Origin: Bolinopsis microptera
Lineage: Eukaryota; Ctenophora; Tentaculata; Lobata; Bolinopsidae
NCBI RefSeq assembly: GCF_026151205.1
Contig: NC_087072.1
Location: forward strand, 16,321,669 to 16,385,668
DNA length: 64,000 nucleotides
Direction: 5' to 3'
Part shown: piece after piece, positions 2,857 to 58,670 of the stretch
Layout of the letters: each line of letters opens with the position of its first letter
Position numbering within the stretch: position 1 is the stretch's first letter
Made by a program: the position numbers and the translations under genes
The notes under the pieces: model-generated
The model's database searches: none
Told to the model about the DNA's origin: nothing
The model's input: the letters and a program-made list of their open reading frames with translations, nothing else

Positions 2857-2929
2857 AGAATTTTTCGCAACTTCTATGTATTATAATTTTGTACAAAATC
2901 ACACTAAAGCTATTAATAGCTTTAACTTA

Positions 2930-9110: not shown

Positions 9111-10549
9111 GCAACTGCAAGAGCTTGCTATTCATGCTAAAAGTGTTGAACCGCTGAACGTGTGACATACAAATTGTACACTTATCTTCGAGCATAATGA
9201 AGATCACGGGCACGTACTTGGAAAAGTTGTGGCCGTTTTTATGACCTAAAATTGAAAATTAACCATGTACACGTATCGCATTATTGTCGACATGACAAAC
9301 GAAATTAGCAAAACATGATAATTTTGAATAACATACAATTAAAACATACAAATTTCTGGAATGAACTGAAAATCAAGTTTGATTTCTCCCAAGCTGACTG
9401 AAAAAAAATAGAACACTTTATCTGCATGCTGTGCAGATTTATATAAAGTTTATTTAAGCTTTAAGAACATCTTATCCGTTAATATTCACAATCAATTCTG
9501 TAAGAAGTTAACGATAGTGTTTAGTGGTGGTTCATGAGTTAAGTGGGTTGCCATGTTCCATCTATCATCTAATTCTATGTATCGAGGGTTAATCTTTGTA
9601 CGCAATACCGCTCGGTTAAATTTAGGTCAGACTAGTAATCGTTTTGTAGATAAACTTAGCAATTTTGACTTCAGAATCATCGACTATATTTGTTCAGGAT
9701 CTGAGGAATGTACCCTTGCATGTTCATCTCTAAAGTTTGCCTAACTGGTTTAAGATTAATCGACATCATAGTATTATTAAAATCAGACCACATTTCTCGA
9801 AATTTGAGCTAATGGAATGTTGAGGAACTTACTAAACTAATAGACTTTGCCATGAAAAGTGGTGAGCTCTTGCTAATTGCTAATGCTATAATGTAGATGA
9901 CTATTTTGACAAGCACGATGTATCTTAAATATCTTATAATTTAATTGTTTGAGTAGAGCAAGGTGATTATTATACATTTATTAGTTTCTCTTATACTGTA
10001 GACAGTAGACACCACTGTCAGTGGACCACTTTTCTTTAGACTTAAATATCTTTTTTACCAGTTTTCCAGAAAACGACACTGAACATGTGACATGCCACAT
10101 GGTCATGGTTCACAGTATTGAAGTTGTATAAAACGAAGCATAATATACCATGTAAGTTATCCAGACTCGTGTAGCCCAGCATATCAAGGAAGAAAAATGC
10201 CATCACTACAGTTACTAGTCGCATTACACTATAGCATAGCTTTTCCATTACACCAAGTGATGTGTACCAATTAAAATGAGGGTGGAACATCATTCGGCTC
10301 ATAATGGCGTTATTGAGGATGTTATTAAAACAGTACAGCTGACCACAAAAAGTTCATTTATTCCAAGTTTGACTTAAATACCCTCCAGGTTGAACAATGA
10401 TTTAATTCTCGACAGGATATTTCGTCGTCTATTTTCCTTTGACAAAACCAGCTCCTGCTTATAATACATTGTCATTTTTCAATCTTAGCATTCCTTCGTT
10501 TGAGAGATCAGAACAGTCAAAGCTCTAATTCCACGTAGAAGCTATTGCG
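9111..10549. other. intergenic stretch upstream of the GPCR, no gene seen
   Basis: AT-rich sequence without recognisable coding exons, structured RNA or repeats shared with the rest of the window. A small minus-strand frame at 10042-10302 has hydrophobic patches but no family resemblance. The GPCR promoter and 5' UTR presumably lie near the right end. Confidence 0.5.
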
Positions 10550-12367
10550 ATGGCTGAAGGATGGCTTATTCCGAGGACGTTAACGCTCTGTTCTGGCGCG
10601 TACACATTTAATAAGAGCGCGATAATTAAGCTGGACATAAAAGGGGACCAGCACACCTACATCGCAGGTTTCACCTTCATGCTGGGTCTACAAACAGTGC
10701 TGCTCAACATGTACGTGTTAGGCTACTACAGGGAGAAGAGGGAGGGGGTATTCCCCCTGTACTACTTCATCACCACGCTCTGTAACAGTATCCTGGGTCT
10801 GGATGCTGTCATCCACACCATCCTCCTCCTCCTCTACGTGCTCTACTCCCCTGAAGACACCCCAGGGTCCCAGAAACTCTTCAACTACCTCATATTTGTT
10901 ACCTACACGCTCACCTCCACTGCTAGGAACTCCAAGTTGGTCTACAATACTATTCTCATATCGATGAGAGCAGTCAAGTACTGCAGTCCCACTCATGTCT
11001 TCTCAAGGAGGACAAGCTCTGCTGTTATCTTACTGTTCCCCATTGGCTGGATGCTGTTTTTGGCGGGAACTCTCGACTTCCAGTTCGCTCTTCCAGCAGA
11101 GGTACGGTTTAGTCACTCTAGGCTTATACTTTTATACGACTACTAGGTACTTTTTACTTGTGGTTGGTATAAGAAATAAGGCAGCTTCTTCATTAATATA
11201 AATATTGATATCAAATAAATATTAATATTTCTTCATTTAAATATAAATATTATTTTACTATCACAACAATGAACACATGTATAGTAGAAGTTAACAGTTT
11301 TACCTAAAGCATTCTGCTTGACTTGTGCTTTTCATCAAACTTAAAACTTGACCACCAATCAATCTACCAGGTAAACATGCAACAGTACATCTACTACCCA
11401 GAGCGAAACACTAAGAAAAATAGTCTCAGGATAGTGTCCATATGTATCCTGTACGTCCTGCCTCTAGGCATCATACTCACCAGTCTGGCAGTGTGTCTCT
11501 ACAAACAGAGACAGAAACACAGAGCGGACTACCTGCACAAACTCAAGGCAGATCAAACTTACAGAGGTGTGGTCCAGCAGCCAACATACGGTCAGAGCAA
11601 GGTTACAGATGTGGCTCTGACGGCTCTGTTACTGGCATGTTACCTGCCTTATGTGGTCCTCATGCTAATCGATGTTGCTTACCCTAAATCCGACAAAAGT
11701 AAGTTGAAAACCCTTGTCAATCCATTGTTATTTTGTACGAGGCTGACCTTTTGTTTCATACAAATCATTTAGAGAAAAACATGAGGCCAACCATGTACTA
11801 TTGTTCACTTGGTTATATTGAATCATTGTTGGATTTTATTATCATACTATCGTCTTTCATAGCGCCGATATTGGACTTATCACAATTGGAATAATGATGT
11901 CCATATTCATATTGTATATAGTATATTGTGTTACAATTAATTTCATTTCAAGTAGAACACATTATAATTGATAATTATGTCTAACAATTTCAGAGCCGAA
12001 CTGCACCATCTTGTTCATTACGGGTGTAATCCTGCCCTTCATGAACTCTGCCTTCGATCCGGTCATCTTCATCACTTATAACGTGGAGATGTCCGGCCGG
12101 ATTTCACTCCGGATGCGCACATTCTCCGGCTCGTGCTGTAACTTCAGAAGAAGGCACCCGGTTAACGTCCGGTTCGATGTGGACCCTGGGATACGGACGA
12201 TGACTTTGGGAAACAGCGAGAGGGCGAGGGGCAGCATGTGCATTATGAAGAGATGGGAAGACCCCGCTGTTATCGAGTACAAGGATTCGTCGGGCTCGGA
12301 GAGCGACAGCAGTTTGGAGAGCTTCGAGCACTATGTAAAGAAACACAAATCTAGAAGGTACAGATAA
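10550..12367 (+). CDS. rhodopsin-like (class A) G protein-coupled receptor, orphan, three exons
   Basis: Exons 10550-11101, 11371-11698 and 11994-12367 join in frame at GT-AG introns to give 417 residues ending in TAA. Seven membrane segments are visible: TM1 about 36-58 (with N53), TM2 about 68-99 (LGLD, the conserved Asp at D85), TM3 about 111-143, TM4 with W168-type GWMLF, TM5 starting SICILYVLPLGI, TM6 ending CYLPYVVLM (CWxP variant) and TM7 ending NSAFDPVIF (NPxxY variant with Asp and Phe). An N-glycosylation site N21-K-S lies in the short N-terminus. The DRY position reads MRA, keeping only the Arg. The C-tail is Arg-rich then acidic/Ser-rich (SSGSESDSSLESFEH), a likely arrestin/kinase target. 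It ends 343 bp from the convergent SLC9B gene. Ligand and subfamily are not recognisable. Confidence 0.85.
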
Positions 12368-12710: not shown

Positions 12711-15700
12711 TTAAACATTCCTATAACCATCTGCATCGTCAGAGTTATGTACGCTGTTTAAACCAGTGGATACTTCTTCCTTCTCACTCTCCTTCACACG
12801 GATAGGTTCAACTTCTTCTGACCTGTAAAAGGTATCTTTTAGTTTCAGTGAGTGCGAAAAAAAAAGAATTTTACCAAATACCAAACCGATCAAGGGGATC
12901 TTGAAGCAGACTGAATTTTTTTGTGCTAAGTAAAACGGCTCTAGGGATAATTCCTATAAATAGAAGTGTAGTCTGTACTTAAAGTCTAGTAGACGAGGTC
13001 CGAGTAGAGAAATGAGAGCAGCACCAGGTGGGGAGGTGACGATAATAGCCAGCACAGCTACACACAACACTGTTACACCGTACAACTCTGCTGTCTTGTC
13101 TCCTGGGAGGGTCTCTCGTACTCTGTCAAGAGCTATTGACCCAATAGCAGCCTGAAAAGGGAGCATGTCGGTTATCTGGAACATAAGAGAGTTTCAGAAC
13201 TTGAAAAGGGAGTTTCAGAACAGTTATAACAGCTAATTATAAATTATTACAGTCAATAATAGATTATTAACCAAGGAAAACTTAGAGAAATACATGGATA
13301 ATATACCTGCACAGTAGCTTTGGGAGTCCAAGAGGTGCACATAAACAGTTTCTCACTAAGATGCAGGGAAGAGCAGTGGACAGAGAGGAACGCCACCCCA
13401 CATCGTAGCAATACTCCCACTATTAAACAAACCACACCGTAACCTGGTCATTTAAACTCTTCCAGATTTAAAGAATACACAATAACATATTGCTAATTCA
13501 CTATCCTAAAGTAGCAAATGATCAGAGTTAACAGGCCTCATTCTCCAACTCACCGACTATCTTATAGTTGAGTAAAGAAAGTTCCACCTGAGCTCCGACC
13601 AGAGTGAAGAGCAGAGTCTCCCCTACCAGCCATAACTTCTGTAGAGACGCTGATATCTCAGTCTGTTGGGGTGACAAGGTGAGAGGTGATAAATACTGCC
13701 GACAAGGATAGTGAGCTACAAATTAAACTTTATCAGTCCATTGGATAACTTTATTAACAAATAAAAGTGAAAGTAAAAGACTTAAAAACCAGCGGCTCCT
13801 ACCTTAGTCTGCCAGGTTTGAGCAGCTACAGTAGACATAACAAGAGCAGCCAGGACCCCTGCCCCAGCGAAGGTAGCCCTCTTTAGCCCAAACACACAGC
13901 TGAACCCCACCATGGTGAGAAGGAGGGTCTGCACTGATGCCTGGTGAGGGGAGTGGGGAGGCAGGTGGGACAGGATGTACCCTAGTACCACACCACATAC
14001 TCCACCTAAATGTAGGGTCTCTTAAAACTATGTCTTGGTAAGTGGTATAAATTGCTAATTATCGTTATTACAAGTGGGTCATATGCTAGAGAAGTCATAC
14101 TAACTCGTCATCTAAAAATCCTGTACTGTAATGTAAAAGTGTAAAATAATATAGAAGGAGAAGAACGCAAACTAACCCAAGACGACCTCAATAGGCCCCT
14201 CCATGATAACCATAGCAGCATGAGTACTCTCCGGGAAGACAAATTTGAGGGCTACACTGAACCCGGTGATGGTAAAGGCGTTATCAGCAGTTGCAGCAGC
14301 CATGAGAAGGGTAGGGACTCCTGCTCTGTTTCCGTATCCCCTGTCTATCAGGGACAACATACTAGGGATCACCACTGCCGGGGATACTCCAGCTATCACA
14401 AACCTGGGATGGGGGTTACTATCACAAACCTGGGAATTGGGATGGGGGTTACTTTCAAAAACCTGGGATGGGGGTTACTATCACAAACCTGGGACGGGGG
14501 TTACTATCACAAACCTGGGATGGGCCGGGGTTACTATCACAAACCTGGGATGGGGGTTACTATCACAAACCTGGGATGGGGGTTACTATCACAAACCTGG
14601 GATGGGGGTTACTATCACAAACCTGGGATGGGGGTTACTATCACAAACCTGGGATGGGGGTTACTATCACAAACCTGGGATGGGGGTTACTATCACAAAC
14701 CTGGGATGGGGGTCTATCAGGGACAACATACTAGGGATCACCACTGCCGGGGATACTCCAGCTATCACAAACCTGGGATGGGGGTTACTATCACAAACCT
14801 GGGAATTGGGATGGGGGTTACTTTCAAAAACCTGGGATGGGGGTTACTATCACAAACCTGGGATGGGGGTTACTATCACAAACCTGGGATGGGGGTTACT
14901 ATCACAAACCTGGGATGGGGGTTACTATCACAAACCTGGGATGGGGGTTACTATCACAAACCTGGGATGGGGGTTACTATCACAAACCTGGGATGGGGGT
15001 TACTATCACAAACCTGGGATGGGGGTTACTATCACAAACCTGGGATGGGGGTAACTATCACAAACCTGGGATGGGGGTTACTATCACAAACCTGGGACGG
15101 GGGTTACTATCACAAACCTGGGATGGGGGTTACTATCACAAACCTGGGATGGGGGCCGGGGTTACTATCACAAACATGGGATGGGGGTTACTATAACAAA
15201 CCTGGGACGGGAGTTACTATCACAAACCTGGGATGGGGGTTACTATCACAAACCTGGGATGGGGGTTACTATCACAAACCTGAGATGGGGGTTACTATCA
15301 CAAACCTGGGATGGGGGTTACTATCACAAACCTGGGATGGGGGTTACTATCACAAACCTGAGATGGGGGCTACTATCACAAACCTGGGATGGGGGCTACC
15401 TTTCTATTGGAATATTGTGTAAATGTGTGTTATTGGACTGATCGACAGTGATAATAGAGCTCTTAGGGGGGGGGGGGGGGGGGGGGGGGCCAAGTGGATA
15501 TTTGTAGATATTTGTAGATTAATGTAGAGTGGATAATCCACGAAAAAAGTGGATGACATTCTACAAATTTATACATTTATCTCCAAAAATTCAGTAGAAT
15601 TTCTGGGCACATATTTGAGATTACATTTTTTGTAGATAAATGTAGATATTTGTAGATTATTGTCAATGGATAATTCACGAAAATTCTACAAATTCTACAA

Positions 15701-30703: not shown

Positions 30704-33700
30704 ACTTTTGTGAACGTTTATCAGAGATATTGACTACCGTTTACTCTTTTATTTAACATATTTCTTTTACGCGTATCATATGACTATAGTAAATGGTATT
30801 TAACTGCCTAATTGACTGTTCTCAATTCAATTTTGATTTTATAAACTGTAATTAATTGAACGAATAGTTAAATGCAACATTCACCACATTAATTTCCATA
30901 CTTTATAGTTAGCTGAAACAATGGTTTATCTCAATCGGTTTGGGAAGGAAGTGCAAACGACGATATGAGTAGGGATTGTGCGGGATGGTGAAGTATTGTC
31001 CAACCCCCCGACGCCACCTACTGTCTCCCACGGGTCACGGTTTCTTACCACGTCACAACCGCGCAACATCACCGAACAATATCCTCAAACTAGTCAAACA
31101 GGCTAACGAAGTAAGTGCGTTTAAAACTTAACATACCAATCTCTGGACTTTCACCGAGCCATACTGAAACTGTTTGTAGTTATGTATGGAAAAACGTGCA
31201 GCTTAACAACGTATCCTCTCTTTCCGGCAGCAGGTGTACAATATCCGATAATAGACTGTGTGAGTTATACTAAAAGGACCGGTCATGAGCGCCGCTAGGC
31301 AGCACTGCAGTTGTAGCGCGCACCTGGCCGCAACTCTGGCACATTCCTCTCATGCCTGTTAACATTGTACGCACCAGGTTTGATATGGGAGACAGGTCTG
31401 TATTACATGTTTGATTGTGATTAATCTTGTAGTTTCTTCAGAATGATAGTTCTCCGTGTTTTGTGCAAACAGATTTTCAATCCATTTCTCAGTTGATTGA
31501 GGACAGCCCTTGAATTTATTTGTTTAAAATCTACAAAGGAAAGATATTTTACATACTCTGCACATGGATAAGGAAATCTATGACAGTGTAAATTATTTCC
31601 GATATCAAAATAAGAAATGTTTAGAATTGATTATAATGCAGATTATGTTAATAAGAAGGGTAATCAATACAATAAAAACGTCTGAGGTATACTGAATACA
31701 AAATAATCATGTGTAATGTATACTGACCAGGTAACAGGTTCAAGATAACCCCACAGTAACTCTACGTGTCGGGAGGCAATACACAGGTATCAGTTACATG
31801 AATCAGAGATACATGATATTCGGTGAAACCCTGGATATAGCTGTCGGCAATGTCTCTGGACAGGTTTTAGTTTTAAACGTTTAATCAAATTTAAAGATTA
31901 AATCTCCGCTTTGTTATTTCGGAAAACTAGTTTTTTGTTAGCCAAAACTTTGTATCTTTTTATTTCACATTGAATCTGGCCGGACTTAATCCAAATAATA
32001 CGCTTTCATGCAGGTTTGCCAGAGTGTTGAAGTTAAGTAACGACCCCGTACTGATACAACATTGACAGCTAGCTAAACAGGGAAAAAAGATTATTGAGCT
32101 ACCTTACTGTGTCAAAAAGGAATGGTATGTCAACTTTTTTCTGGTTATTCGCAATAGTTTATTCTAGCAGGAACCCGTCTAACCCTAAAGTGTTTTAAAT
32201 GACTCGAGAGACTAAAATGATTATTACTATTTAAATTCGCGTTTTTGACACCACGTTTGGGAGTCCATATTGTTTTATTTTGGGCACTAAAATTAATTAA
32301 TCCTTGGCCAATTTTTTATTTTTTCATGCTGATATTGAAGCCATTAAAGCATTTGACCCAGTCAAAAAGATTCATGTTGTATATCTTTATACGTTTTTGC
32401 GGAAAGTTGCGTAAAGTTGATGCCGTGTTGTCAGTAAAATGCACGGATATATACATACAAATATATCGTACTCGCTTTATATATAGTAATAACTCGGATA
32501 TTGTTGCATGTAATATCTTCTTCCATAACAATCAACATCCCAATCCTCCGACATTCAATTTGCGTCACCCTGCTAATTTTCCAGGACTTGTTATCGCACA
32601 TTGAAGGGACTGCTGTACAGATCTTGCGGCAGGAGACTGCACTAAGCGATCTTTGTTATTCTTTTACAGGTTTAGCCATAACCAATCATCTGTGCGTAAA
32701 ATTAACAGGTTCACGTTATTAAACGTCAACCAGTTCAAACTTTGCAGTTTTGTTGAAACTTGCCGATAATGCATTTATATCTGTTGAATTTAAACAAATA
32801 ATACTTTTATTTCCATGAAACATGTTCGGCGAAGCTGTGGAGATAAACGAACGAGCATCATCTTCCCAACAACGACAATTCCTCATGCTCCACCATCATC
32901 TGGTTCTGCATTAAATGATAAGCACCTCTATCAAGACCACCTTTAAACCACTATTAATTTATTGACCTATTATACTTATGGTAGTTTATAGACCACATTA
33001 ATTTATTAACTTATCAAAATTAGTATTTGTCTTTTGTGACTGTATCACCCAGTTTTAACATTGAAAATTGTACAGTTTATTGACGACACCATTGACTGAA
33101 GTTATTTATATTCTAAATTAATATTCTAGATATTTTATTTTCTTTTACAACAGACGACAACTTCCTGTAATTTTTCTCTATATTAGTTACTCCTATCTTC
33201 TTGAACAGCTTTTTTACGAAGACATTGACAAATGATACCCACATTAGGCATTCATTAATGCATCTAAATTTTTCACTGCATAGCTTAGAAATTATTCTCT
33301 GGTCAACAGATTTCAAATGTTAATTAATTGAAGTATGACAGTAAGTAATAAAGACGTATTTAATTTTGCTTGGGCTATTATATGGACTAGGTATGGAGGT
33401 TTAATGATGAATATGGCATTTGAATCTATATAAATTTACAGCTATGTGGTTGGGGCATTTTGCATAGTAAATATGGTTATCAACTCATATATATCAATTA
33501 TTATGATGTGGTATTCGATTTCTGATTAATTTCTCTAGGATAAGAGTATTATATCTCAATTTGGCTTTAGGTAGTGCCCCGCTAAAAGAACTGTGATTCT
33601 TCCAGGAAGCATCCCGTGCACAGAGCTTGGTCTACATATATATTAAATTATTAAACCACCATTTCTGTATGTGCACAAAAATTTATTTTCATCAAAACAT

Positions 33701-33890
33701 GAGGAAAAACCTGTGTAGACAACGTAGGAAGAATTCATGAAACAGTGATGCTGAATCGACCTGTCACCAATTACTGCGAATCTCTTCAGTTCAGTCAGAG
33801 ATGGGCATTCATATGTTCATTTGAGAGATACAAGTATAGCGGATCCCGAGATAGAATAAGAAAACCGTGGAGATCCCTGATAAAATTGCT
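30704..33890. other. unit interior between WDR55-like gene and LINE, copy 1
   Basis: Mostly AT-rich. One exon-like block (about 30970-31115; copy 2 about 48630-48770) reads LSNPDATYLLPRSTVSYHSQ and ends near a GTAAGT-like site; a second GC-richer block lies at 31230-31400. Neither is recognised. The remainder shows no gene. Confidence 0.4.
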
Positions 33891-33904
33891 ACACTTGCCT
33901 GAAA

Positions 33905-34800
33905 ATCATGAGAGTTCGTGGCCGACGGAAACTCCAGAATGAAACAGCGATGTTTTATCAACCGTATAAGAAGGCGAAGGGTTATCTGCCTGAACATTCA
34001 GACAATGAACCGGTGATACATCCAGAGTCTAGCATATTGACTCTTTTCCATTGGAGGTGAATGCAAATCCTCTTCACTGAAATGAACAACCCATTCACAC
34101 GCACAAGTGTACTCCAAGATCCAGTTTTACAGGATACCAGACAGAGTCGGCTCACTACAAGCACTCTATTCCATAAGGGTCAGTCACTGTGCAGTACGAT
34201 ATATAGTTTCACCATCAGATCAATAATGGAAAGACGTGCCAGTAATTATCTTCTCTTGATTCAATGGAGCAGTTATGAAATTTGGAAAGGATCACAAAAG
34301 AGCTTGGTAAGTGGCTGCCTGTCGGAATTTTGGACTCTACAATAGGATGGACCATTAACCCATATCTTGGCATGTGGATACAAGAACCTGTTTTATTTGG
34401 GTAATAAATGATGTTATAAGACCATCTGTTAAATCTCAGCGTGAACTTTTTGCCAATTTAGTCCATCTAGAATTCAAGATTGAGCAAATTCAAGAGGCCA
34501 ATCAACTGCCCAAGTATTTTCTTGTCCTCTTTTACAACTCGAAATGCTGATTTAAATAGGAAATGTACTCTTTATAGAACTTAGTCCGTCGTGAAGCTAC
34601 GCCCCAAAAACATTGGTGTCCAGTCGTTGTTGGCTTTGATGACTTTCCATGACAAAAACACTGCTTACTTTGCCTAACCTAGTCCCAGGCTTTGACAGAT
34701 ATGGCGAACGGATTTACCTGCACCTCAATGGAAGGGAGTGGCCAAACTTGCTACTTAATTCCGTAATACTGTCCTTGTTAGATGCATGAGGGACTGATAG
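33905..34800 (+). pseudogene. AlkB-like 2OG-Fe(II) oxygenase plus SGNH hydrolase (LINE ORF1-like), copy 1
   Basis: Frames are broken by indels but motifs are plain. The AlkB part reads GYLPEHSDNEPVIHPESS (the HxD iron-binding pair), then ILTLSIG, and near its end RYSFTFRS after comparison of the copies (the Arg-x-Ser-x-x-x-Arg of AlkB 2-oxoglutarate binding). The SGNH hydrolase part follows: (G)DSNGAGMK (block I), ELGKWLPGR, YVGINDVIRPSVKSQRE (block III GxND), ANPTAQVFLCPLLPTRNADL and RFDRYGERIHLHLNG (block V Asp/His). AlkB enzymes oxidatively remove alkyl groups from nucleic acids; SGNH esterase domains are known in ORF1 proteins of CR1-group LINEs. Whether both are on one polypeptide cannot be proven here. 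Confidence 0.75.
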
Positions 34801-34929
34801 GAGGAAGAGGTGGGGAGGAGGACGGTAAGGTAGGTTCAACACTTTATTCTCATCCCGCCGGAGGACAGCCTCCATGTTGAAGGCATCAGCCTCCACATGA
34901 ATGTTCATTAAAAGAGGTCTGTAGCCCAC

Positions 34930-37900
34930 AGTTTAAAAAGTATTTACTTAGTCAATCTATCAATTGAAATCTACCACTGTAATTGTCCCAGTTCACTCCC
35001 TAGATGTTTTAACACCAGTGACAAACAAATAAAAAAGTTGACTTGTACTGCAATAATTGTATCCACCTAGCAGTAAACCGTTTTATAACCCCTTTAAGCT
35101 ATCTGAATGAGACAATGATGACAGCACAGATGCAGATGAGTAATACGTAAAATCTCTGAGGTACTTGAAAGGCTGTGACTCTTATTCTTGTAAAAGACAT
35201 AAACCGCACCTTTGCTAACGAATTACAAGTCAAAACTCACTAATAATTTAAAATCTTGATGCAACAAATCAAACTTTGAACCGCTTGCAATTGAAATAGC
35301 TAGGTTTAACTAACAAATTCTCCTGTAATATGGACTTGCTGAAAACGAATGAAGGCCCTGAATGAAAAACTTGTACAACTCACAGGCTATGAAGCAGTCT
35401 ATCAAGAACCTTCGACTCGAAAGTAAAAGGCTCAGGATTAGCTCTATAATTCCTGACTCTTCAATGCTGTCAAAAATAACACCCTTCACAAGTAACAGAA
35501 AATCTAGAAACCCTCTTTGTAACTATAAGGTAGTCTAGGAAATTCTACTTCTATATAGTACTATAACCGCCCTGCCAAGTGGCAAGCTGACAAGCTCACC
35601 AAGAACTGTCGTCATACTTATAAAGCACCAAAACATACACACATTGCGTGATTTAACTATAATCTCCATAGTAACCAACAGTAGCATTAATGCACAGATA
35701 TGAAGAATGTTCCTATTTAAGTAGAGGCTTCTTTCCATTGAATATCATTATCAACTCATAAAAGCCTGGATGTAATGCCTCGTGCATCGACACACATACA
35801 GTACAAATGACCTAGACTCTGGTTACTGCATCTGGAGTCATAACTGATCACATATCTCATCACCTCCCAATTATTTAACAATATAAGACTGGGAGAAATT
35901 AGCAAGACCCAAAAATATTCACAAGCACACTCAAAATTATGACTATTGTAAATCAAACAACATGATAATTTTTCGGAAGTCTTGGGTAACAAACTAGAAC
36001 AAGACAATGAACCAAATATAGAATTTTAACTAACTTTCAATGATATATTTAAAAACACATTGACGAAAAACTTGCAAACTAGCTGTACCCAAAACCACTA
36101 AGCGCACTATCCAGAACACCCCATTGATACTGCGGGATAAAGCCCTCAAGTAAACCACTGGCCATGGGCTGTACGATGACTGGTGCGAAAGTCCGGAACG
36201 TTAAGTGTAAACAAAGCGAAACTGACACAAAAGGGGCACATCACTGTGTTCTATCTGCTGTAATAAAAGAAAAACCGTTATGTGATGACAAACAAAAATA
36301 TAGAAAGGCTCTAAAAAAGGTTCGTAAAAAAGCTGTATCTGAATATTTATTCAGACGAAGTTACCTGAAAACTCAGGAAATTTCCAGAAAACCTGGAACT
36401 GATAAATAAAATTCGTGCAAAACAGAAACGTGATTATCAGACCTATAGTTTCCATAGAACAATGCAAGATAACTGCTCGCAGATTTATAGCTAATGAATT
36501 CAATAAGTATTTTGTATCCCTAGCATCTAAACTTAATGCAGCCTACACAAACTAGGAGAGATACAAATAAATCAGCTTCCAAGTTTCTGTGACTTCTTAC
36601 CTAAAAAATTTCCCGAAATACAGCTAATTATAAACTACAGACTAGCTCACCTGAGGAGTGGCTAAGATCAACGGAACTTAAAGAATGGCAAGGCTAGCGA
36701 CATACCAGTACATATAGTAAAGGCATATCATGCATAATTAGCCCACCTACTATCGGGTATTGTAAACGAATGTATGCAACACGTGACTTTTCCAGAAACG
36801 ACCTAAATGTAGTAAATAAGTCAAATATATAAGAAAGAAAATGTCTGAGCTTCTTTGAAAATACAGGCCTAACTCATCTCGCAATATTTCTGTAAAAATA
36901 CTTGAAAAAATCATATTTCTCCAGGCTTTAACAGTTTTCTTTCAGTCGCAAGGATTATTATATGAAAAATCAATAAGGCTTAGAAAAAATCACTCGACAA
37001 GCCATGCACTCAACTTCACTGTCGACTACATTGAAAAAATCATTTAAGAGAATAAAAATCACGTACTAGGCATCTTCATTGATAAAGTAAAGCTTTTGAC
37101 AATCTGTCATGAAACCTGCTTAAAAAACTGAATGATTTATGGAATTTCGGGGGACGGCCAAATAAATTGATAGCACAGTTACCATTTCTAATAGACACAA
37201 TATTATCAGTAACTTGGAGAAGACTCCGAAAAAAAACCTGTCTGTAAATATTTGGTGTCCTCAGGGGTCAGTATTAGGTCCCTTGCTTTTCAATATCTAC
37301 ATCAAAGAAATAACAGAGTAACAGACCTAGGTAAGCTTATACTTTTTGCCGATGACACCAACATATTGTTGTAGATAAATGTATAAAAACACTTTACTGC
37401 AAAGCTAATAAAATTCTTAAACTTGTTCAATCAGTATATGAAGAGTAACTTGCTGCATAACAACATAAAGAAATGTTGATATATCCACTTTAAGCCGACT
37501 GTTAGAAATGATCAGATTCAAACACCAATGAAATAGACTGACACTAAATTAAATATTAGAAATTAAAAATGTGGAGGAAACTAAGATTTCTTGGAAGTCA
37601 TTATTGACCAAACTGAACTGGGATGCTCACCTTAAGAGCGGTAAACCGTAAATTGAATGTGAGATAGGTAGACATGTGGAATTAGACCTGTGTACCTAAA
37701 AAACTATATAGGACCTGTACCACACCCTTTTTGAACACCAACCTCTGTTATGGAATATCTTTTGGGGAGTGTGTATCAATAATAAACTAGAAGCCATATT
37801 TATTAAAACACAAAAGAAATGCAATAAGAATTTCACTTTGGTGAGAATGATTCATACTTCAAAAAGTTCAAAACATGTGCCAGGAGTAAGGCCTATCACT

Positions 37901-38275
37901 AGGGAAAAGACCGTAAAAGTTATCAAGCAGATGTTAGGCAAAAGATTTCTTGAACTAGAAACACAGTAAACCAAACTGTAAGATATACCTTCCTGCCCTG
38001 TCCACAATCTTCATAAGTTGCACTGTTTACTGAAAGATGTTTAAATTAATAAATTTCAATCACCAGTCTCAATGTTTCCCTCTTTATTCAACAGGTCACA
38101 AGACGGACAACTACTTCATCCTCCCACTCCATCCTCACTTATTCCATCTATCAATCAACTCGTATTTGGACTCACTTGCCGTAAGTCAACAAGTGAAATA
38201 GACTACTCCACTCCCATCGAGTATATTCAAGAATAATCTTAAGAAATCATTGTTAGAACTACAATCTAAATAATG
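34930..38275 (+). pseudogene. LINE ORF2: endonuclease and reverse transcriptase, copy 1
   Basis: An endonuclease-like piece is seen at about 35425-35500 (GSGLALYIPDSFNAVK, the GGxALYI strand of APE-type LINE endonucleases); the rest of the domain to about 36100 is too degraded to trace fully. From 36160: KYRKALKKVRKKAVSEY, then LENYRPIS-type region, GFRKNHSTSHALNF (36970), LGIFIDLSKAFDT (motif A, 37065), VPQGSVLGPLLFNIYI (motif B, 37260), LILFADDTNIF (motif C, 37340), KFLGVIIDQ (37590) and a C-terminal tail to 38275. This order is that of jockey/CR1-group non-LTR retrotransposons. All catalytic residues can be found, but in different frames. Confidence 0.82.
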
Positions 38276-40884
38276 ACCGACAAGCATTTGTGCAGTTACA
38301 ACTTTGATGCAATTTGAATTATCATGAAATAGTGATTTAGTAAACATAATCATATGAGTAAACCCACGGAGTTTTAGCGAATAAACCATGACAAGATATC
38401 AGACCTATATTAATACAAAGAGACGACAAAATACGAATCATCATACAACAAATTTTTAAAATCCTGCGCACAGGATCCTGTGTTTCCTACTCTAACTCTC
38501 CCAAACCCCTCTCTCCTTCTCCTCTCATCAGGTTTATTCTTCAATTTTTTTAAAATTAGATAGCAATATATTTGTCATTTACTGAAGTAATGGCATTATA
38601 CATTGTTTGTTATTCGTAGTATGTGTGTATAGTGTTTGCTGACTGGTATATGCTATATATTTTGAGGCTCACGACGTCTCGTCCCATGGGTGAGTTTGTA
38701 GGTGCTAGTATGTTTCAAAATCTCTACATCGTAAAGGTGAAACACTGAAAACGGTTTGCCTTAGCCTATTGGGTCGAAGTGTTTGCCCACCGGGGATCAC
38801 ACATATATGATTATCATGCCATTACTTTGACACATAAAAACTAATCAAAACGACTTAGATGATTCCAAAAATTTTTACTAACTGCAATTAGCTAGTTTAA
38901 AGTAAATAAACACGATCGCAGAATAGAGTGCGAGCACAATTGGTTTCCTTGTTCTGCGACTGTGTTGACCTCGGTGGCCACAGGTTTTTTGTTGTGTAGT
39001 AGTGCTGGTGAAAAAAACGCTTTAACTATCCAATGAGTCAATGAGAGTACAAAATTTTTAATTCTTGCCTTAGTGCCACAGATTTCAGTGGTAAAACAAA
39101 TTTATTAGTTAAACGTGATATAATGTAGAAGGGCATGATTTACTCCACACACTAAGCACTGGATGAAAATTGCACACAAAGATAAACTGACCTTTAAACA
39201 TGACCACCAGCTATACCACGTAACCATACTCCGAAATAAATAAATTGCTCTACATATAACATCTGGCCTGATCCCATCACATTGTGGGTCCCAGGGTTCG
39301 TAAAGCCCTTACAGGCAACTGGGTCCTTTACCACCACAAAAAAATTGATCAAGCCAGTACTGCCCAAAACTTAACCCAACTAGTTTTTAAAAATATAGAA
39401 ATCTTTTGCTAATTTGAAATTTAATCAAAGAGCAATCTTCTCAATTTTTAAAATTTTTAAGAATTATAATTTAACCCTAACTATGATGTGGAGCATTTCA
39501 TACTTAACTAAATTTCAACTTGAAAGTAAATAGATTATTATGCCAACAAATATAGTTTAAGACATCCATTCTGCATTGTTTTTCCATATTAGAAATTATG
39601 ATATGTATGATTGAATAATGGTAATAAATTTTAACTTTTGTTTTATTAACTTTTGTTTTATTATTTGGCAAAAGGAGCCAGTTGCCTGCAAGAGCGTTAA
39701 CTAGCACCCGATTACCACTTTTGGGCACAAACTCAAACCTAAAACCGCCAACACAAAGTATGTTATCGCACGATTGGTGGGATTGATTCCCAAAATAAGT
39801 TATCAGCACGCGGCACAATAATATAGAAGTTCATTATTCAATTTAGATATGCCATCGAGCGTTAACACATATATAAAAGGTTATTAAAGAATAATTAATG
39901 TTGTTGTTGGTATATATCCGATATTAATCCATTAATTTAAAATAGTAATTGGATTTTGTGTTATTATTAACAATTGAGTACGATCGATTTAAATATTAAC
40001 ACACTACTACAATACATTTCATCAAAAACAAAACGACGTGGAACACAGATAGGAGAAGGACAACACATCACACGGACCGGAAACTCTGCTGTTGATGAGT
40101 ATCTGATTATATTAAATTATGGATCCTTGTTCATTTCAAATAGGTGTGATCATACTTCTAGAGTATATTGGGCTGGCACAGTGCTGCAGTTAACATTGAG
40201 GTTCCAAAACCGGGAGTGTGATACAACTTATTTTCGCGTTACGTTCGTAAGAGATACCAAATAATAAAATATAAAGAACTAAAAGACTGCAAGTTACGGA
40301 TAAGCGCGTGCGCCATTTCATTATATCGGCGACGGTAAATCACGCAGTGGAAATGAAAAGATAAAGTTTATACAATGTTTAAGTTTGCTGCGCTTATCCC
40401 ATGATTGACAATGTCACTCCGACCAGATCGTTTGCTCTCGAAGCAAGCAACGACGACGACTGACGACGACGACGACAGAAGACGCGCATCTGAAGAATGC
40501 GAAGCAAGAACTGCAATTACGCGCGGCGTGCGTCGACGGCGGCTAAGTCCTCCACACAATACCAAAAATCAGATCCCAATATCACTTCATTAAGCCGTTC
40601 GAAAACAAGTGTCGACATATAAATAATTAAATATAAAAATCAAAATGCACGTCCTACCTCGAATAAACGTGTTTTTCCGAGATTTCTTATTTAGTTTAAC
40701 TTATTTACATGGCACGCCAGTCACTAGCGCTTTCACGGTCGCTTTTTTCAAGCTTCATGAACGTCCTGCTTCCAGGATGAAAAATCCTTGAGAGGAGCAA
40801 ACAAGGAACAATCAAGCTAGGTAATGTCAAAGCACAATCCCAAACTTATTCAATGGTTAATGAAATGCAGACCCAGCCGCTGCC
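38276..40884. other. unit interior: LINE 3' tail and unassigned sequence, copy 1
   Basis: To about 38850 the sequence looks like LINE 3' UTR (GTTTATTCTTCAATTTTTT, then TTGAGGCTCACGACGTCTCG). The rest is AT-rich. Around 40405-40545 a (GAC)n-rich, CpG-rich patch occurs (copy 2: 58180-58330). No gene recognised. Confidence 0.4.
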
Positions 40885-51300: not shown

Positions 51301-51640
51301 TTAGGCTTTAGGTAGGTGCCCCGCAAAAAGAAACTTGATTCTTCCAGGAGCATCCGAGCAAGAGCTTGTCTACATATATATTAAATTAATAACCAACATT
51401 CTGTATGTGCACACGAAAAATTATTTCACTCAAACATAGGAAAAACCAGTGTAGACACCGTGGAAGAATTCATCGACAGTATGCTGAAATCAGACCTTCA
51501 CCAATGACGGCGAATCTCTTCAGTTCAGTCAGGTAGAAAGCATTCAGTATGTTCTTTTGGAGAGAGGTACAAGTATAGCGATCCAGAGATGAGAACTAAG
51601 AAAACCGTGGAGATCCCTGATAAAATTGCTACACCTTGTC
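48376..51640. other. unit interior between WDR55-like gene and LINE, copy 2
   Basis: Colinear with 30704-33890. It contains the exon-like block at 48630-48770 and no other recognisable coding sequence. A run of A and a TATATAAG-containing stretch at 51065-51095 differ from copy 1. Confidence 0.4.
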
Positions 51641-54600
51641 CTGAAAATCATGAGGATTATCTGTAGCATAAGAAACCCTGTAATGAACAGCGTGTTATAC
51701 AACCGCAATGAGAAGTGCGAGGTTATCTGCCTGAACATTCAGACAATGAACCGGTGATACATCCAGAGACTAGCATATTGACTCTTCCATTGGGAGGTGA
51801 AAGCAAAAGTCCCTTTCTCTGAAAAGACAAACCAGTTCACACGCACAAGTGTACTCCAAGATTCAGTTACAGATGACCAGAAGGAGTCAGGCTCACTACA
51901 AGCACTCTATCCAAAGGGTCAGTCACTGTGCACAGTACGATATAGTTTCACCTCCGATCAAATAGATGGAAAGGAAATCGTGCCAGTACATGTATCTATC
52001 TCTGATTCAAATGGAGCAGGTATGAAATATGAGAGGATCACAAAGGAGCTTTGGGAGTGGCTGCCTGGTCGGAATGGTTTGGCTCCTACAATAGATACAT
52101 AACCCATATCATGCTGAGGATACAAGAACATAGTTTTATATGGTGGTACTAAATGATGTATAGAAGACCATCTGTATAAATCTCAGCGTGAAATTATTTG
52201 CTATAATTAGTCATCTAGAATGCAAGTAATGAGCAAAATCAAGAGGCCAATCCAACATGCCCCAAGTATTTCTTCTTTGTCCCTTTTACAACCGAAATTG
52301 CTGTTTAAATAGAAAGTTCTATACTTTATAGAACTTATTCGTCGTCAGCTACTCCCCAAAAAACTTTTGGAGTCCAGATACGATGAGAGGCAATGAATGC
52401 TTCCTTGACAATAACACTGCTTACTTTGCCTAACCTTGTCCAGGGAGTTTGACAGAAATGGCCGAACGAATTACCTGTCACCTCAATTGGAAGGAGTGGC
52501 CAAACTTCTACTTAATCGTAATAACTGTCCTTGTTAGGATGCATGAGGACGATAGAGGAAGAGGGGGAGGAGGGACGGTAAGGAGGTTCAACACTATTTA
52601 TACTCATGCGCCGGAGGACCGCCTCATGTTTGAAGGCTATCAACACTCCTCCAACATGAATGTTCATAAAAAAGAGGTCTGTGCCCACTGTTTAAAAAGT
52701 ATTTTACTTAGGACAATCTATAATTAATGCAACCACTGCAATTGTCCAATCCCTCTAGATGATATTAACACCAGTGACAAACAAAATAAAAAGTTACGTT
52801 GTACTTGCCATAATAGTAATCCACCTAGCATTAAACCGTTATAACCGCAATTAAGCTACTGAATGATGGACAATGAAGACAACAGCTGATGCAGATGAAG
52901 TAATAACGTAAAAATCTCTATTACTTGAAAGCTGTGACCATATTCTGTTAAAAGACATAAAACCGCACCTTTGCTAACGAATAACAAGTGCAAAACTCAC
53001 TAATATTTCAAATCTGATAGGCAACAAATCAACTATGACTCCTTGCAATGAAATAGCTAGGTTAACTAACAAATTCTCTGTAATTGGTCCTTGCAGAAAC
53101 GAATGTAGCCCCTGAAATGAAAAACTTGTACAACTCACAGGCTAAAGAGAGCATCCATCAGATACCTTCGTGATCGAAAAGTAAAGGCTCAGGAGTACTC
53201 TATAAGTCCTGAACCCTTCAAGCAGTCAAAATAACAACCTTACACAAGTAACAGAAAACTATAAACCCACTTGTAACTATAGGGAAGTCTAAGGACATCA
53301 ACACAATAGGAGTTAATATACCGCCTCCAAGTGGTGCAATTCTGAGCAACTCACCAAGAACAGTCGTCAATACTTGATAAAGCCCCAAACTTACACACAT
53401 AGCAGGTGATATTAACATAATCACCATAGTAACAACAGTAGCATATAGCATACAAAAAAAAAACCAAAAGTATGAAGAAGTCTCCTATTTGTAGAGGCTT
53501 CTATCCATTGATATTCAAATAGCAACTCATGAAAAGCCTGGATGAAAATGCCTCGTGCATCGACAACCATCATTACAAATGACCTAAGACTCTGTTACTG
53601 CCTCTGGAGTCATAACTGATCACATAATCTCTCACCTCCCTATATTTACCATATTTGACTGGGAAATTAGCAAGACCAAACATATTTCACAACACACTCA
53701 ATATTATGACAATTGTAAATCAACACTGATGAAATTTATGCTAGAAGTCTTTGGTGAACAAACTAGAACAATGAACCAATTTAATAGAATTTTACTAACT
53801 TTCATATATCTTAAAAAAACAGCATAGACGAAACCTGCAAACTAAGCTGTACCAACAACCACTAAGCGCACTATCCAGAACAACCATGGATTACTGGCGT
53901 ATATAGCCTCATAAACCACTGCCAAGCGCTGTATGAAGACTGGGCGAAAGTCAGGAAAGTTTAAGTGTAAACAAGGCGAAACTGACACAAAAGGGGGCAC
54001 AAGCCTGTGTTCCTATCTTCTGTAATAAAAGAAACCGTTATGGATACTACAAAGAATATAGAAATGCTCTAAAAAGTTCGTAAAAAAGCTGTATCTGAAT
54101 ATTATTCTGACAAGTTACTTGAATAACATCAGGGAAATTCTACCAAGAAAACTGGGAACTGATAAATATAATTCGTGGCCAAACATAAACGTGATATCAG
54201 AACCTATATTTATTACCATAGACGAAGAAAAGATAACAGAGCGCAAGTTTTAAATCAAATGATTCAATAAGTAATTGTGTAACCCTAGCATCAACATTAA
54301 TGCAGCCTACACATGACCTAGGAGAGATACAAAATAAATCAGCTTCCAAGTTTCTTTACTTCTTACCTTAAATCGACTACAGCTAATATATATCTACCAT
54401 ACGCTCACCTGAGGAGGTGCTAATAACATATCGGAACATAAGAATGGCAAGGCTAGCGACAATATACCAGTAACAAATAGTAAAGGCAGTATCATGCAAA
54501 ATTACCACAAAGTAACTACGGTATTGTACAACGAATGTATGCAACAGGGACGTATTTCACCAGCGACCTAAAAGTAGTAAAAATAAGTCCAAAAATAAGA

Positions 54601-56035
54601 AAGAAAAAGCTAGCTTCTTCAGAAAATACGGCCTATTTCTCCACCCCAACCTTAAGCAATAACGTAAAATACTTTGAAAAAATCATATTCTCCAGGCTTT
54701 ACAGTTTCCTTTCAGATCGCAAGGATTAAATATATGAAACACTATGGCTTTAGAAAAATCACCGACAAGCCATTCACTCACCTTCTCTGTCGACTTACAA
54801 TGAAAAATCTTTAGAGATAAAAATTCACGTACTAGTCCTCTTCAATGATTTAAGTAAAGCATTTTGACACAATCTGTCATGATAAACTGCTACAAAACTG
54901 AATGGATTATGGAATTCGGGGGGACTGCAAATAAATTGATAGCCATTACCTTTCTATAGACAGCAATATGTTCAGTACTTGGGAGAAGAATCCGAAAAAC
55001 TGTCTGTATATTTGTTGTTTCCTCAGGGGAACATATTAGGTCCCCTTGCTTTTCATTATCTACATCAATGAATATACCGATAAATCAGACCTAGGTAAGT
55101 ATATACTTTTAGGCCGATGAACACCAACGATAATTTTGTAGATAAATGTAATAAAAACACTTTACTGCCAAGAGCTAATAAAATTTCATAAACTTTGTTA
55201 CATCATATATGAAGAGTAACTGGCAGCATATCAACATAAAGAAATTTTGTTAATCCACTTTAACCACTGTAAAAATGAACCAGATTCAAACACCCAATGA
55301 ATTAGAACGGACACTAAAAAATATAGTAATTAAAAGGGTGAGGAAACTAAGTTTTCTTGGAGTCATTATTGACCAAAAAACTGAAACTGGGATGCTCACT
55401 TAAGAGCGTTTAAACGTAAATTGAAATGTGAGGATAGGTAGACCTATGTGGAATTAGACGCTGTGTACCTAAAAACTATATAAGGAACCTGTACCACACC
55501 TTTTTGAATCATCACCCTATGTTTTGAATATCAGTTGGGGAGTGTATCAAATAAAAATCTAGAAGCCATATTTAAAACACAAAAGCAATGCATAAGAATT
55601 CTCTTTGGTGATAATGGATGCTACTTCAATAAGTTCAAAACATGTGCCATAGTAAGGCCTATCACAGGGACGTAAGAACCGGTAAAGTTATCAAGCAGAT
55701 GTAGGCAAAGATTTCTTTGAACTAGCACACATTAAAACCAATCTTAACGATATAACATTCCTGACTGTCACAATCTTCATAATTCACTGTATTACTGTAA
55801 CTGTTTAAAATTAATAAGTTTCCAATCCACAGTCTCAAGTTCTCCTTTATTCAACATTTCACTCATGACGAACCACTACTTCATCCCACCCACTCCATCC
55901 TCACTATCCTCTATCAATCAACTTAGTATTATGGAATCACTGCCGTAAGTCAACAAGGAAATAGACTTCTCCACTCCCATAATATATTCACAAGAATACT
56001 CTTAAGAAATCTTTGTTAGAACTACAATCTAAATA
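51640..56035 (+). mobile_element. LINE with AlkB-like oxygenase, SGNH hydrolase, endonuclease and RT, copy 2
   Basis: Same order as copy 1. AlkB/SGNH block about 51650-52570 (LPEHSDNEPVIHPE at 51727; SISDSNGAGMKYERITKELW then WLPGRNG at 52000-52080). Endonuclease trace GSG-LALY near 53190. RT traces include KISP-IRKKK (54575), EKIIFSRLYSF (54677), GLGPL/LAF near 55040, the ADDT region near 55115 and KFLGVIIDQ near 55355. The C-terminal tail reaches about 56035. All frames are broken. Confidence 0.78.
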
Positions 56036-58670
56036 ATGACCGACAGCTTTGTGCATTACAACAACTTGAAGCAAATGAATTACATTGAAATAGGTTGGAT
56101 TTAGTAAACATAATCATATGAGTAAACCATGGTGTTATTGCAAAAACCAATGACAAGTATCAGACCTATATTAATCTAAGAGACACAAAAAACGAATCAT
56201 CAACAACAAATTTTGAAAATCCTGCGCACAGGATCCTGTTTGTTTTCCCTACACTACCTCACCAAACCCCACTCTCCTTCTCCTCTCTTCAGGTTTATTC
56301 TTCAATTTTTTGAAAAATAGATAGCAGTATATATTTTCTATTTTAAATGAATAATGGCATTATACATTGTTTTGTTTTATCGTATGTAATTGTGTATAGT
56401 GTATGCTATGACTGGGGATATGCTAGATATTTTGAGGCTCACGACGTCTCTTCCCATGGGTGGAGTTTTGGTAGGCTGAGTATGTGTTCAATCTCCTTAC
56501 ATCGTATGGTTGAAACACTGAAAGGTTGCCTTAGCCCTTTGGGATCAGTGTTTTTGGCCCCACCGGGGATCCAATTATATGATTACATGGACATTACATT
56601 GACACCCATACTAATCAAACGACTTTAATGATTCAGAAAATTTTTACAACCTGCATTAAGTCAATGTATATAGAAATACACACGATCGCAAAGAAAAGAG
56701 GACACAAATGGTTCCTCGTTCTGCGACGTGTTTCCCTCGAGGTGGGCCGACAGGTTTTTTTGTTGTGTATAGTGCTGGGGAAAAAAACGCTTTAACTATC
56801 AATGAGTCAATGAGAGTACAATTTATAAATTCTGACCTAGTGCCACAGTTTCTGTGGTAAAAACAAATTAATAATTAAACGTGATATATTGTAGAAGGGC
56901 ATGATTTACTCAACATCACTAAGCTCAGGATGGATAATTAGCACACAAAGAATAAACTGACCTTTAAAACATGACCACCAGCTATACCAACGTAACCATA
57001 GCTTCCGAATAAAATAAATTGCTCTCACATAAAACAACTGCCTGGATCCCATGCACATTGTGGTCCCCAGGTGTTCGTAAAGAGCCCTTACAGGCAACTG
57101 GGTCCTTTTACCAGCCACAATAAAATTGAATCATGCCAGTACTGTCCATAGAACTGTAACCAACAATTTAAAAATAAGATATCTTTTCTAAATTTAAAAT
57201 TTTAAGTCAAAGAGAAATCTTCTCAATTAAAATTTTTAAGAATTAATATATTACCCTACTATGAAGTGGTGGCATTTCAACTTAACTAAATTTCAACTTT
57301 GAAAGTAAATAGATAATTAGCGACCAACAAAATTATATTATTAAGACATCCATTCTGCATTGTGTATTCCAATATAGAATTTATGATATTGTTATTGAAT
57401 GAATAAATGGTAATTAAATTTAACTTTGTTTTTATTAACTTTTGTTTTATTATTGCAAAGGACCAGTTGCCTGCAATAGCTTACTAGCACCCGAATTTAC
57501 CACTTTTGGAGCACAAACTCAACTAAAACCGGCCATGCAGCAAAAGTATGTTAGCGCCACATGGGAGGATTGAATCCCAAAATATTTATCATCACGCGGC
57601 ACTAATAATATGAAGTTCATTATCGAAATTAGATATGCCATCGATCGTTAAACACATATATAAAAGGTTATAAAGAATAATTAATATATTGGTTGTTGGT
57701 ATATATCGATATTAATCAATTATTTAAAATAGATTTGTGTTTGTTATAATAAACTATTGAGTTACGTTTCGATTAAATAATAAAACACTACTACAATACA
57801 ATACACAAACACAACTGACGGGACACAGAAATGAGAAGGACAACACATCACACGGACGGAAAACTGCTGCTGTTGATGAGTATCTGATTATATAATTATG
57901 GATCGCTTGTTCATAAAATAGGTGTGATCAATACTTCTAGAGTATATTGGGCTGGCACAGTTAGCTGCAAGGTTAACATTGGGGTCCAAAACCGGGAGTT
58001 GTGATACAACTTATTTCGCGTTACGTATAAGAGATACAAAAACTAAAATATAAGATATAAATGACTGCAAGTTTACGATATAGCGCGGCGCCATTCATTA
58101 ATCTGGCGCGGTAAATCACTGCTGGTTAAAGAAAAATGATAAAGTTATACACTGTTTAAGATTTTGCGCGCTAAACCTAAGAATGACAATGTCAATCCGT
58201 CCAGAACGTTGCTCAGCGAAGCCGAGCAACGATCGACGACGAGACGATGACGACGACGACGATGACGCGCATCGAAGATGCGAAGCAAGAAGCTAGTACC
58301 GCATGCGCGACGAGGCGGCGAAGTCCTCCAACCCTATACCAAAATTGTCAGTCCCCATATCTCATCCATTAAGCGTTCGAAAAACAAGTGCGAAAATAAT
58401 AATTTAATATAACATCAAAATGCACGGTCTACCTCGATAAAAAAAGTTGTTTTTCGTGATTTTCTTTTTATAGTTTTACTTAATATTTACATGGCACGCC
58501 AGTCACTAGCGCTTTGCACGGCGCTTTATTCAAGCTTCATGAACGTCGATACAGGAAGAAAAATACGTGAGAAGGAGCAAACAAGGAACTATCAAGCTAG
58601 GTAATGTCAAAGCACAATCCCAAACATTTCAAATGTTAATGAAATGCAGACCCACCGCTTGCCTCTTTTT
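56036..58670. other. unit interior: LINE 3' tail and unassigned sequence, copy 2
   Basis: Colinear with 38276-40884, including the TTGAGGCTCACGACGTCTC word near 56430 and the (GAC)n-rich patch near 58230-58265. No gene recognised. Confidence 0.4.

Follow-up and report, generated by a model that had tools for sequence, protein, structure and literature searches.

The closest described counterparts of the elements reported here are the CR1/L2 LINEs with an esterase-type (type IV) ORF1, such as zebrafish ZfL2-1, in which an ORF1 encoding an SGNH esterase is followed by an ORF2 encoding an endonuclease and a reverse transcriptase (EN-RT), as set out in the portions of PMC3905857 and PMC4120745 drawn on here. 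The same portions record PHD fingers in CR1/L2 ORF1s. The PMC4120745 portion places esterase-type ORF1 in vertebrate groups only, and section 13 of PMC3905857 notes these proteins as having no known RNA-binding domain. The words oxygenase, dioxygenase and AlkB do not occur in the available text of either source. No description of an AlkB-bearing LINE was found in the open-licence literature, and subscription papers could hold one. Unlike a ZfL2-1-type ORF1, that of the present elements has an AlkB domain immediately upstream of SGNH.

Phalaenopsis orchids harbor Ty3/Gypsy retrotransposons that encode an AlkB-family dioxygenase (PMC9289625, excerpts). The orchid AlkB occupies a separate ORF of an LTR element and is nearest to plant m6A demethylases, whereas the present AlkB lies in a LINE ORF1, is fused to SGNH and is ALKBH2/3-like. 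According to the same excerpts, plant flexi- and closteroviruses carry AlkB on a single-stranded-genome replicon; these carriers are RNA viruses, whereas the present ones are transposons. In fungi, 2OG-Fe(II) dioxygenases occur on unrelated transposon lineages of one genome, including Helitrons, and have moved between them (PMC12730594, excerpts); they are TET/JBP rather than AlkB enzymes, and the excerpts report no retrotransposon carrying them. Fish texim is an SGNH gene tied to a Helitron, with the SGNH of CR1 elements among its relatives (PMC4021074, in the portion cited). That gene was captured beside a transposon, with no AlkB mentioned in this portion, whereas the SGNH and Helitron domains described below lie in one ORF.

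The element in the window and its clean relatives

The DNA analyzed here, referred to as the window, is a 64,000-nucleotide stretch of the Bolinopsis microptera genome. In this genome, one iGluR frame (L038) has the Mnemiopsis receptor ML032222a as its top PDB hit, and a second frame (L037) is nearest to vertebrate kainate receptors. A sequence-only reading of the window had claimed that, in both copies of a repeated unit, a LINE has AlkB motifs next to SGNH motifs, with an EN-RT downstream in the same orientation. In translation, the AlkB and SGNH motifs between 33.6 and 38.4 kb are spread across frames and are followed by RT motifs, with YLPEHSDNEPVIHPES at ~33.99 kb, an INDVI block and DRYGERIYLHLNG in unit 1. 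Frame translation, together with mapping of a clean copy (L015), confirmed the adjacency and gave the domain order AlkB, SGNH, ORF2 in unit 1 and identically in unit 2. The block was also recovered in unit 2 by tblastn, where 51460-52150 matched the AlkB and SGNH region of an ORF1 from a clean LINE (E 1.3e-12), and the unit (51.5-57.5 kb) repeats the AlkB, SGNH and RT motif content of unit 1. Many copies have this block ahead of EN-RT in the same orientation. The features of the window are as follows.

32860-32947, + strand: unit 1, ORF1 linker remnant upstream of AlkB, its left edge being the tandem-unit junction (blastn against L015 and the C2 segment)
32948-33694, + strand: unit 1, insert of ~747 bp in ORF1, also at C2/L013 and missing from L015
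33820-34219, + strand: unit 1, AlkB-like 2OG-Fe(II) dioxygenase domain (L015 mapping; PF13532 in the clean copy)
33995, 34162 and from 34197, + strand: unit 1 AlkB residues, namely HxD, distal His and RxSxTxR
34238-34746, + strand: unit 1, SGNH/GDSL hydrolase domain (L015 mapping; PF13472 below cut-off; fold match)
34254, 34401 and 34711, + strand: unit 1 SGNH blocks, namely Ser block, GIND and DxxH
34897-38332, + strand: unit 1, ORF2 (L015 mapping; RVT_1 and endonuclease families in the L015 ORF2)
to 35046, 35252-35873, 36831-37605 and 37345, + strand: unit 1 ORF2 parts, namely zinc-finger N-terminus, EN, RT and FADD
38333-39663, + strand: unit 1, 3' UTR ending in AACTTTTGTTTT-type repeats (end of the match to L014)
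51556-51957, + strand: unit 2, AlkB domain with HxD at 51736 (tblastn; L015 mapping)
51982-52504, + strand: unit 2, SGNH domain (tblastn; L015 mapping)
52656-56093, + strand: unit 2, ORF2 with RT at 54597-55370 (tblastn; L015 mapping)
27326-64000, no strand assigned: apparently error-rich tandem array of the ~17.7-kb unit that holds the LINE; third unit from 62836

Three further observations concern other parts of the window. A 26-bp unit forms a tandem array with long + strand open frames at 14411-15473, Ser/Pro-rich frames lie in simple repeats on the - strand at 2899-4822, and three frames at 10529-12367 resemble, by eye, exons of a GPCR gene.

The window feature is the ORF1 of a non-LTR retrotransposon, with a PHD finger, a linker, AlkB and SGNH. 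In the C2 copy, a PHD frame of 307 aa precedes an insert, after which come an AlkB-SGNH frame of 421 aa and an ORF2 of 1133 aa. L015 lacks the insert, and its PHD frame and its AlkB-SGNH frame (448 aa) differ in phase. PHD, AlkB and SGNH shared one open frame in none of the four fetched copies of the window's family (0/4), the split being due to a frameshift in L015 and to the insert in the C2 copy; in the sister families F676, F692, F697, F707 and F749 the three domains stand together in one frame. In Pfam searches on L015/L013, the PHD finger scored 27.2 bits (cut-off 24) and PF13532 55.8 bits (cut-off 31.2). The reverse transcriptase of the clean ORF2 scored 124.6 bits to RVT_1 (PF00078; cut-off 29.6), and SGNH scored 27.9 bits to PF13472, under the cut-off of 32.9. 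The endonuclease families were likewise under cut-off (PF14529, 22.5 against 27.4 bits; PF03372, 19.0 against 24.5 bits). The ORF2 downstream of the AlkB-SGNH ORF1 carries a zinc finger and a reverse transcriptase, together with a putative endonuclease of the AP type. The type of ORF1 and the tail only suggest membership of the CR1/L2 clade.

One window-family copy, L014, is a single 5.95-kb insertion into ORF2 of an AlkB LINE of the unrelated family F593, with a match to the empty site L004 on either side. Instead of a target site duplication, this site shows a loss of about 32 bp of target, and the 3' end of the copy consists of AACTTTTGTTTT repeats. L014 and L015 are 99.77% identical across 5.2 kb, and therefore the window's family has moved recently. 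The sequence-only reading had weighed a chance abutment of a host gene or another element against the LINE; since L014 is one insertion inside another LINE, this is refuted, and the ORF2-anchored sample described below also excludes it.

Origin of the broken frames in the window

The tandem units of ~17.7 kb that fill 27326-64000 are 82% identical to each other in a self-comparison of the window. Against the clean copy L014, unit 1 showed 4.35 substitutions per 100 positions, with 46 transitions to 205 transversions, and ~5.1 indel events per 100, and unit 2 was similar; the clean-copy pair L016/L014 showed 4.49 substitutions per 100, with 163 transitions to 90 transversions, and 0.11 indels per 100. 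Differences from L014 affected 413/5933 positions in unit 1 and 463/5933 in unit 2; 59 positions differed in both units against 32 expected if independent, 33 of them with the same state. Three short matches (134-440 bp) in the window before 27 kb had 0.8-1.6 indels per 100, with transitions at least as frequent as transversions. The noisy tract was found 100% identical on two other chromosomes, C4 and C5 (queries of 971 and 2001 bp; 3971/3971 bp for L011 and 3252/3971 bp for L010). Because the differences are indel-rich, transversions exceed transitions and the noisy tract recurs unchanged on two other chromosomes, the broken window frames look like uncorrected sequence error rather than decay.

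The clean counterpart of the array unit lies at C2:4.10-4.12 Mb (C2:4101525-4118750). The unit junction in the window (32856/32860) joins both ends of this segment inside ORF1, and for this reason the PHD end is absent from the window copies. The array is possibly uncorrected long-read sequence across a tandem or circular amplification of the C2 segment. The ~747-bp insert (32948-33694), which splits ORF1 upstream of AlkB, is flanked by AAAC microhomologies; both the C2 locus and the array have it, whereas L015 and L016 do not; its interpretation as a canonical intron was rejected, as its edges lack GT-AG. The clean counterpart on C2 also contains a WD-repeat-like frame (L051/L052).

Distribution across the genome

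A PF13532 search of the genome (264.65 Mb, 232 contigs), in which the best 150 of 587 first-look candidates were scored, yielded at least 151 matches, one of those listed containing stops. Sequence was fetched for 29 of these loci and for one more that lies within L014. The 29 loci comprised 22 LINE ORF1s, four Helitron-type copies and three cellular-type genes (L001, L002 and L032). Whether AlkB and SGNH share one ORF had been raised as a check by the earlier reading, and they did so in 20 of the 22 LINE ORF1s, the remaining two frames breaking early. Many LINE families in this genome carry AlkB and an esterase in one protein. The shared ORF was seen in four divergent LINE groups (A-D), B and C being represented by few loci each, and the ORF2s likewise form four groups with ~25-37% identity over aligned stretches. 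A full RT was seen in the window family, F593, F552, F611/F646 and F778/F843; the other families showed ORF2 starts or nothing.

A second sample was drawn independently of AlkB. With the ORF2 start as query, the best 103 of 1436 candidates were scored, rows 1-32, comprising the window's own family and copies close to it, were excluded and every seventh of the other 71 was taken (n=11). AlkB was found upstream in 7/11 and SGNH in 10/11 of these copies. In the four copies without AlkB, similarity to a full sibling ends downstream of AlkB, i.e., they are 5'-truncated; altogether, 5/11 of the sample were 5'-truncated.

Two side observations concern individual loci. L005 and L006 are 98.3% identical in ORF2 and yet differ in the AlkB of ORF1 (dN 0.21, dS ~1.8); this pairing of near-identical ORF2 with a diverged AlkB-SGNH ORF1 suggests an exchange of ORF1 between these LINEs. 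In group D (L008, L009, L025 and L028) a long region separates AlkB from SGNH within ORF1.

The Helitron-type copies were assigned by Pfam (L017), by a shared frame (L020) or by similarity (L018 and L019). L017 is a single frame of at least 2839 aa with the order PF13472 (26.5 bits, below cut-off), PF13532 (75.9 bits), DUF6570, Helitron_like_N (PF14214, 79.7 bits) and PIF1 (PF05970, 78.2 bits), so that AlkB follows SGNH here, the opposite of the LINE order. At least 6 of 41 Helitron_like_N matches share contig, strand and frame length with a listed AlkB match. The sequence-only reading had correctly placed AlkB-SGNH within a LINE, and had missed the PHD finger, the Helitrons and the apparent sequence errors of the window.

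Motifs, selection and predicted structure of the two domains

PF13532 exceeded its 31.2-bit cut-off in all eight AlkB-bearing ORFs examined (55.8-82.6 bits). The iron triad HxD...H and the 2OG motif RxxxxxR were present in 31/31 transposable-element (TE) rows, for which HxD and the R motif were themselves selection criteria; the distal His, which lies outside the selection pattern, was kept in 31/31. In the unselected ORF2-anchored sample, HxD was present in all six AlkBs long enough to reach it. The earlier reading had named purifying selection as a further check, and by the Nei-Gojobori method AlkB dN/dS was 0.05-0.23 in 12/14 sibling pairs, which share sequences and include two low values with saturated dS (2.8 and 1.8). 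The two outlying pairs gave 0.50 from 3 changes and a saturated estimate. As judged from these ratios, the AlkB of these elements is under strong purifying selection. The part following AlkB (SGNH) gave dN/dS of 0.07-0.32 where computable in LINE groups A and C, 0.21 in group D with the long linker included, and 0.63-0.92 in the Helitrons, where this region is not SGNH.

Searched against the PDB, the ORF1 profile A1 matched, in its AlkB part, ALKBH3 and ALKBH2 at 92 bits, ALKBH8 at 58 bits and E. coli AlkB at ~45 bits; ALKBH5 and FTO were absent among the 54 sequences of this search. Group D AlkB alone matched ALKBH3 at 59 bits and ALKBH2 at 38 bits. An AF2 model of AlkB (pLDDT 75.8, pTM 0.74) gave Z 21.5 to both ALKBH2 (rmsd 2.0 over 170 residues) and ALKBH3 (rmsd 2.2 over 174), with lower matches to ALKBH6 (Z 19.9), ALKBH5 (18.6) and FTO (17.1). 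Among the matched entries of ALKBH2, ALKBH3 and ALKBH5, two bear titles that name bound 1meA-dsDNA and 3mC-ssDNA, and AlkB domains of plant RNA viruses were among the fold neighbors. A scan of viral contigs with A1 yielded no sufficiently conserved stretch. The TE AlkB is therefore nearest to ALKBH2/ALKBH3 in sequence and in modeled fold.

Among ten aligned SGNH sequences, S14, G62 and N64 were invariant and D167 and H170 were conserved in at least 90%; the block I Asp was lost in F552/F611/F646 and the Asp of DxxH was not seen in F593/F592/F631. PF13472 stayed under its 32.9-bit cut-off throughout (17.2-30.9 bits in 7/8 ORFs, with no match in L023). In the PDB search with A1, the SGNH part matched a PAF-type protein (42.8 bits) and 4c1b, the ORF1-encoded zebrafish LINE esterase (32.2 bits, E 5.1e-7). 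The SGNH model (pLDDT 71.6) gave Z 15.3 to sialic acid esterase (161-162 residues) and 14.7 to PAF acetylhydrolase; 4c1b was not among its best 50 fold matches.

Relationships of the AlkB domains

In a tree that included human ALKBH2/3, a branch with support of 97/96 parts the AlkBs of LINE groups A, B and C and the Helitrons (17 rows) from the cellular AlkBs and group D (7 rows). Placement of all TE AlkB rows on one side had a support of only 77/73, and a clade of LINE groups A-D without the Helitrons was not rejected (p-AU 0.123). Nesting of the Helitron AlkB in LINE group A (92/94, with a long-branch warning) was lost once human ALKBH2/3 were added. The SGNH tree had no outgroup. The TE AlkBs likely share one lineage; the AlkB of group D may be a separate capture, because the tree places it with cellular ALKBH2/3.

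Proposed role and alternatives

N1-methyladenine (m1A) and N3-methylcytosine (m3C) carry their methyls on the base-pairing face, block polymerases and are substrates of ALKBH2/3. Since LINEs and Helitrons pass through single strands, on which such methyls would stop polymerases, we tentatively favor, at a probability of about 45%, a putative ALKBH2/3-type demethylase in ORF1p that clears polymerase-blocking methyls from the element's own single-stranded RNA or DNA. The absence of a nucleic-acid domain from esterase-type ORF1 proteins (PMC3905857, in the portion cited) is a further reason for this preference. Under this proposal, ORF1p would coat the element RNA, its AlkB domain would strip m1A and m3C off the template RNA or off the growing single-stranded cDNA, and target-primed reverse transcription would then be able to finish. 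In Helitrons, which move as single-stranded DNA, the same enzyme would guard that strand. SGNH could anchor the particle to membranes or serve its assembly there, a role already suggested for the esterase of the zebrafish LINE, and AlkB possibly supplies the nucleic-acid contact missing from esterase-type ORF1 proteins. The sequence-only reading had suggested that the element may edit or protect its own RNA or act on host RNA or DNA methylation. From the similarity to ALKBH2/3 in sequence and fold, we infer that m1A/m3C-type demethylation is favored over the m6A-eraser type. This similarity does not fix the substrate, whose assignment stays putative, and the split of most TE AlkBs from cellular ALKBH2/3 in the tree (97/96) counts against the role, as does the lack of a joint PHD-AlkB-SGNH frame in the fetched copies of the window's family.

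Among the alternatives, somewhat unlikely in our assessment is an eraser of m6A in element RNA, or of 6mA in element DNA, through which the element would escape host readers or silencing. An m6A target is possible because the host possesses MT-A70 and YTH genes (7 and 5 matches, respectively, in a genome search); moreover, the orchid Ty3/Gypsy AlkB demethylates m6A in vitro (PMC9289625, excerpts), and TET/JBP enzymes on fungal Helitrons and other DNA transposons have been read as a means of methylation escape (PMC12730594, excerpts). However, the m6A erasers rank below ALKBH2/3 in fold (ALKBH5 Z 18.6 and FTO 17.1, against 21.5), and both are missing from the 54 sequences of the PDB profile search. 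It is considerably less probable that AlkB serves chiefly as a nucleic-acid-binding domain of ORF1p, taking the place that an RRM has in other LINEs, and that its catalysis is of lesser importance: the Repbase esterase-type ORF1 proteins without RNA-binding domains (PMC3905857, in the portion cited) fit such a role, but the iron and 2OG residues are retained and AlkB dN/dS falls to 0.05.

Slightly more doubtful still is an AlkB directed at host RNA or chromatin, e.g., to favor expression, rather than at the element. Chromatin placement is conceivable through the PHD fingers of ORF1 and the zinc finger at the start of ORF2, but the ORF1p of a LINE is generally expected to remain with its own RNA. 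Only a very slight chance attaches to the window feature being a copy in decay or an AlkB gene of the host that lies beside a LINE by chance. The broken window frames would agree with this, but the difference spectrum is of the error type, open clean copies exist and the nested single insertion L014 carries AlkB-SGNH together with the LINE; for the family, this reading is refuted.

Considering LINEs and Helitrons together, AlkB-SGNH could be a portable two-enzyme cassette, shared or repeatedly acquired by unrelated transposons with single-strand intermediates (RNA/cDNA in LINEs, ssDNA in Helitrons) in this animal lineage, although we regard this as doubtful. If true, the cassette would be a template-clearing or mark-erasing one, in which AlkB demethylates and SGNH either deacylates or serves to dock the particle.

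Implications

Of all parts of a LINE, ORF1 is understood least, and a fused, selected and catalytic-looking AlkB provides an esterase-type ORF1p with a nucleic-acid enzyme and a testable job. The kept AlkB suggests that these jumping genes may clean or unmark their own genetic material. If m1A/m3C is cleared, base methylation or damage of the template would be shown to limit retrotransposition; if m6A/6mA is erased, these elements would be an animal counterpart of the mark-erasing transposons of orchids and fungi. With the Helitron copies, convergence or exchange between retrotransposons and DNA transposons becomes directly testable.
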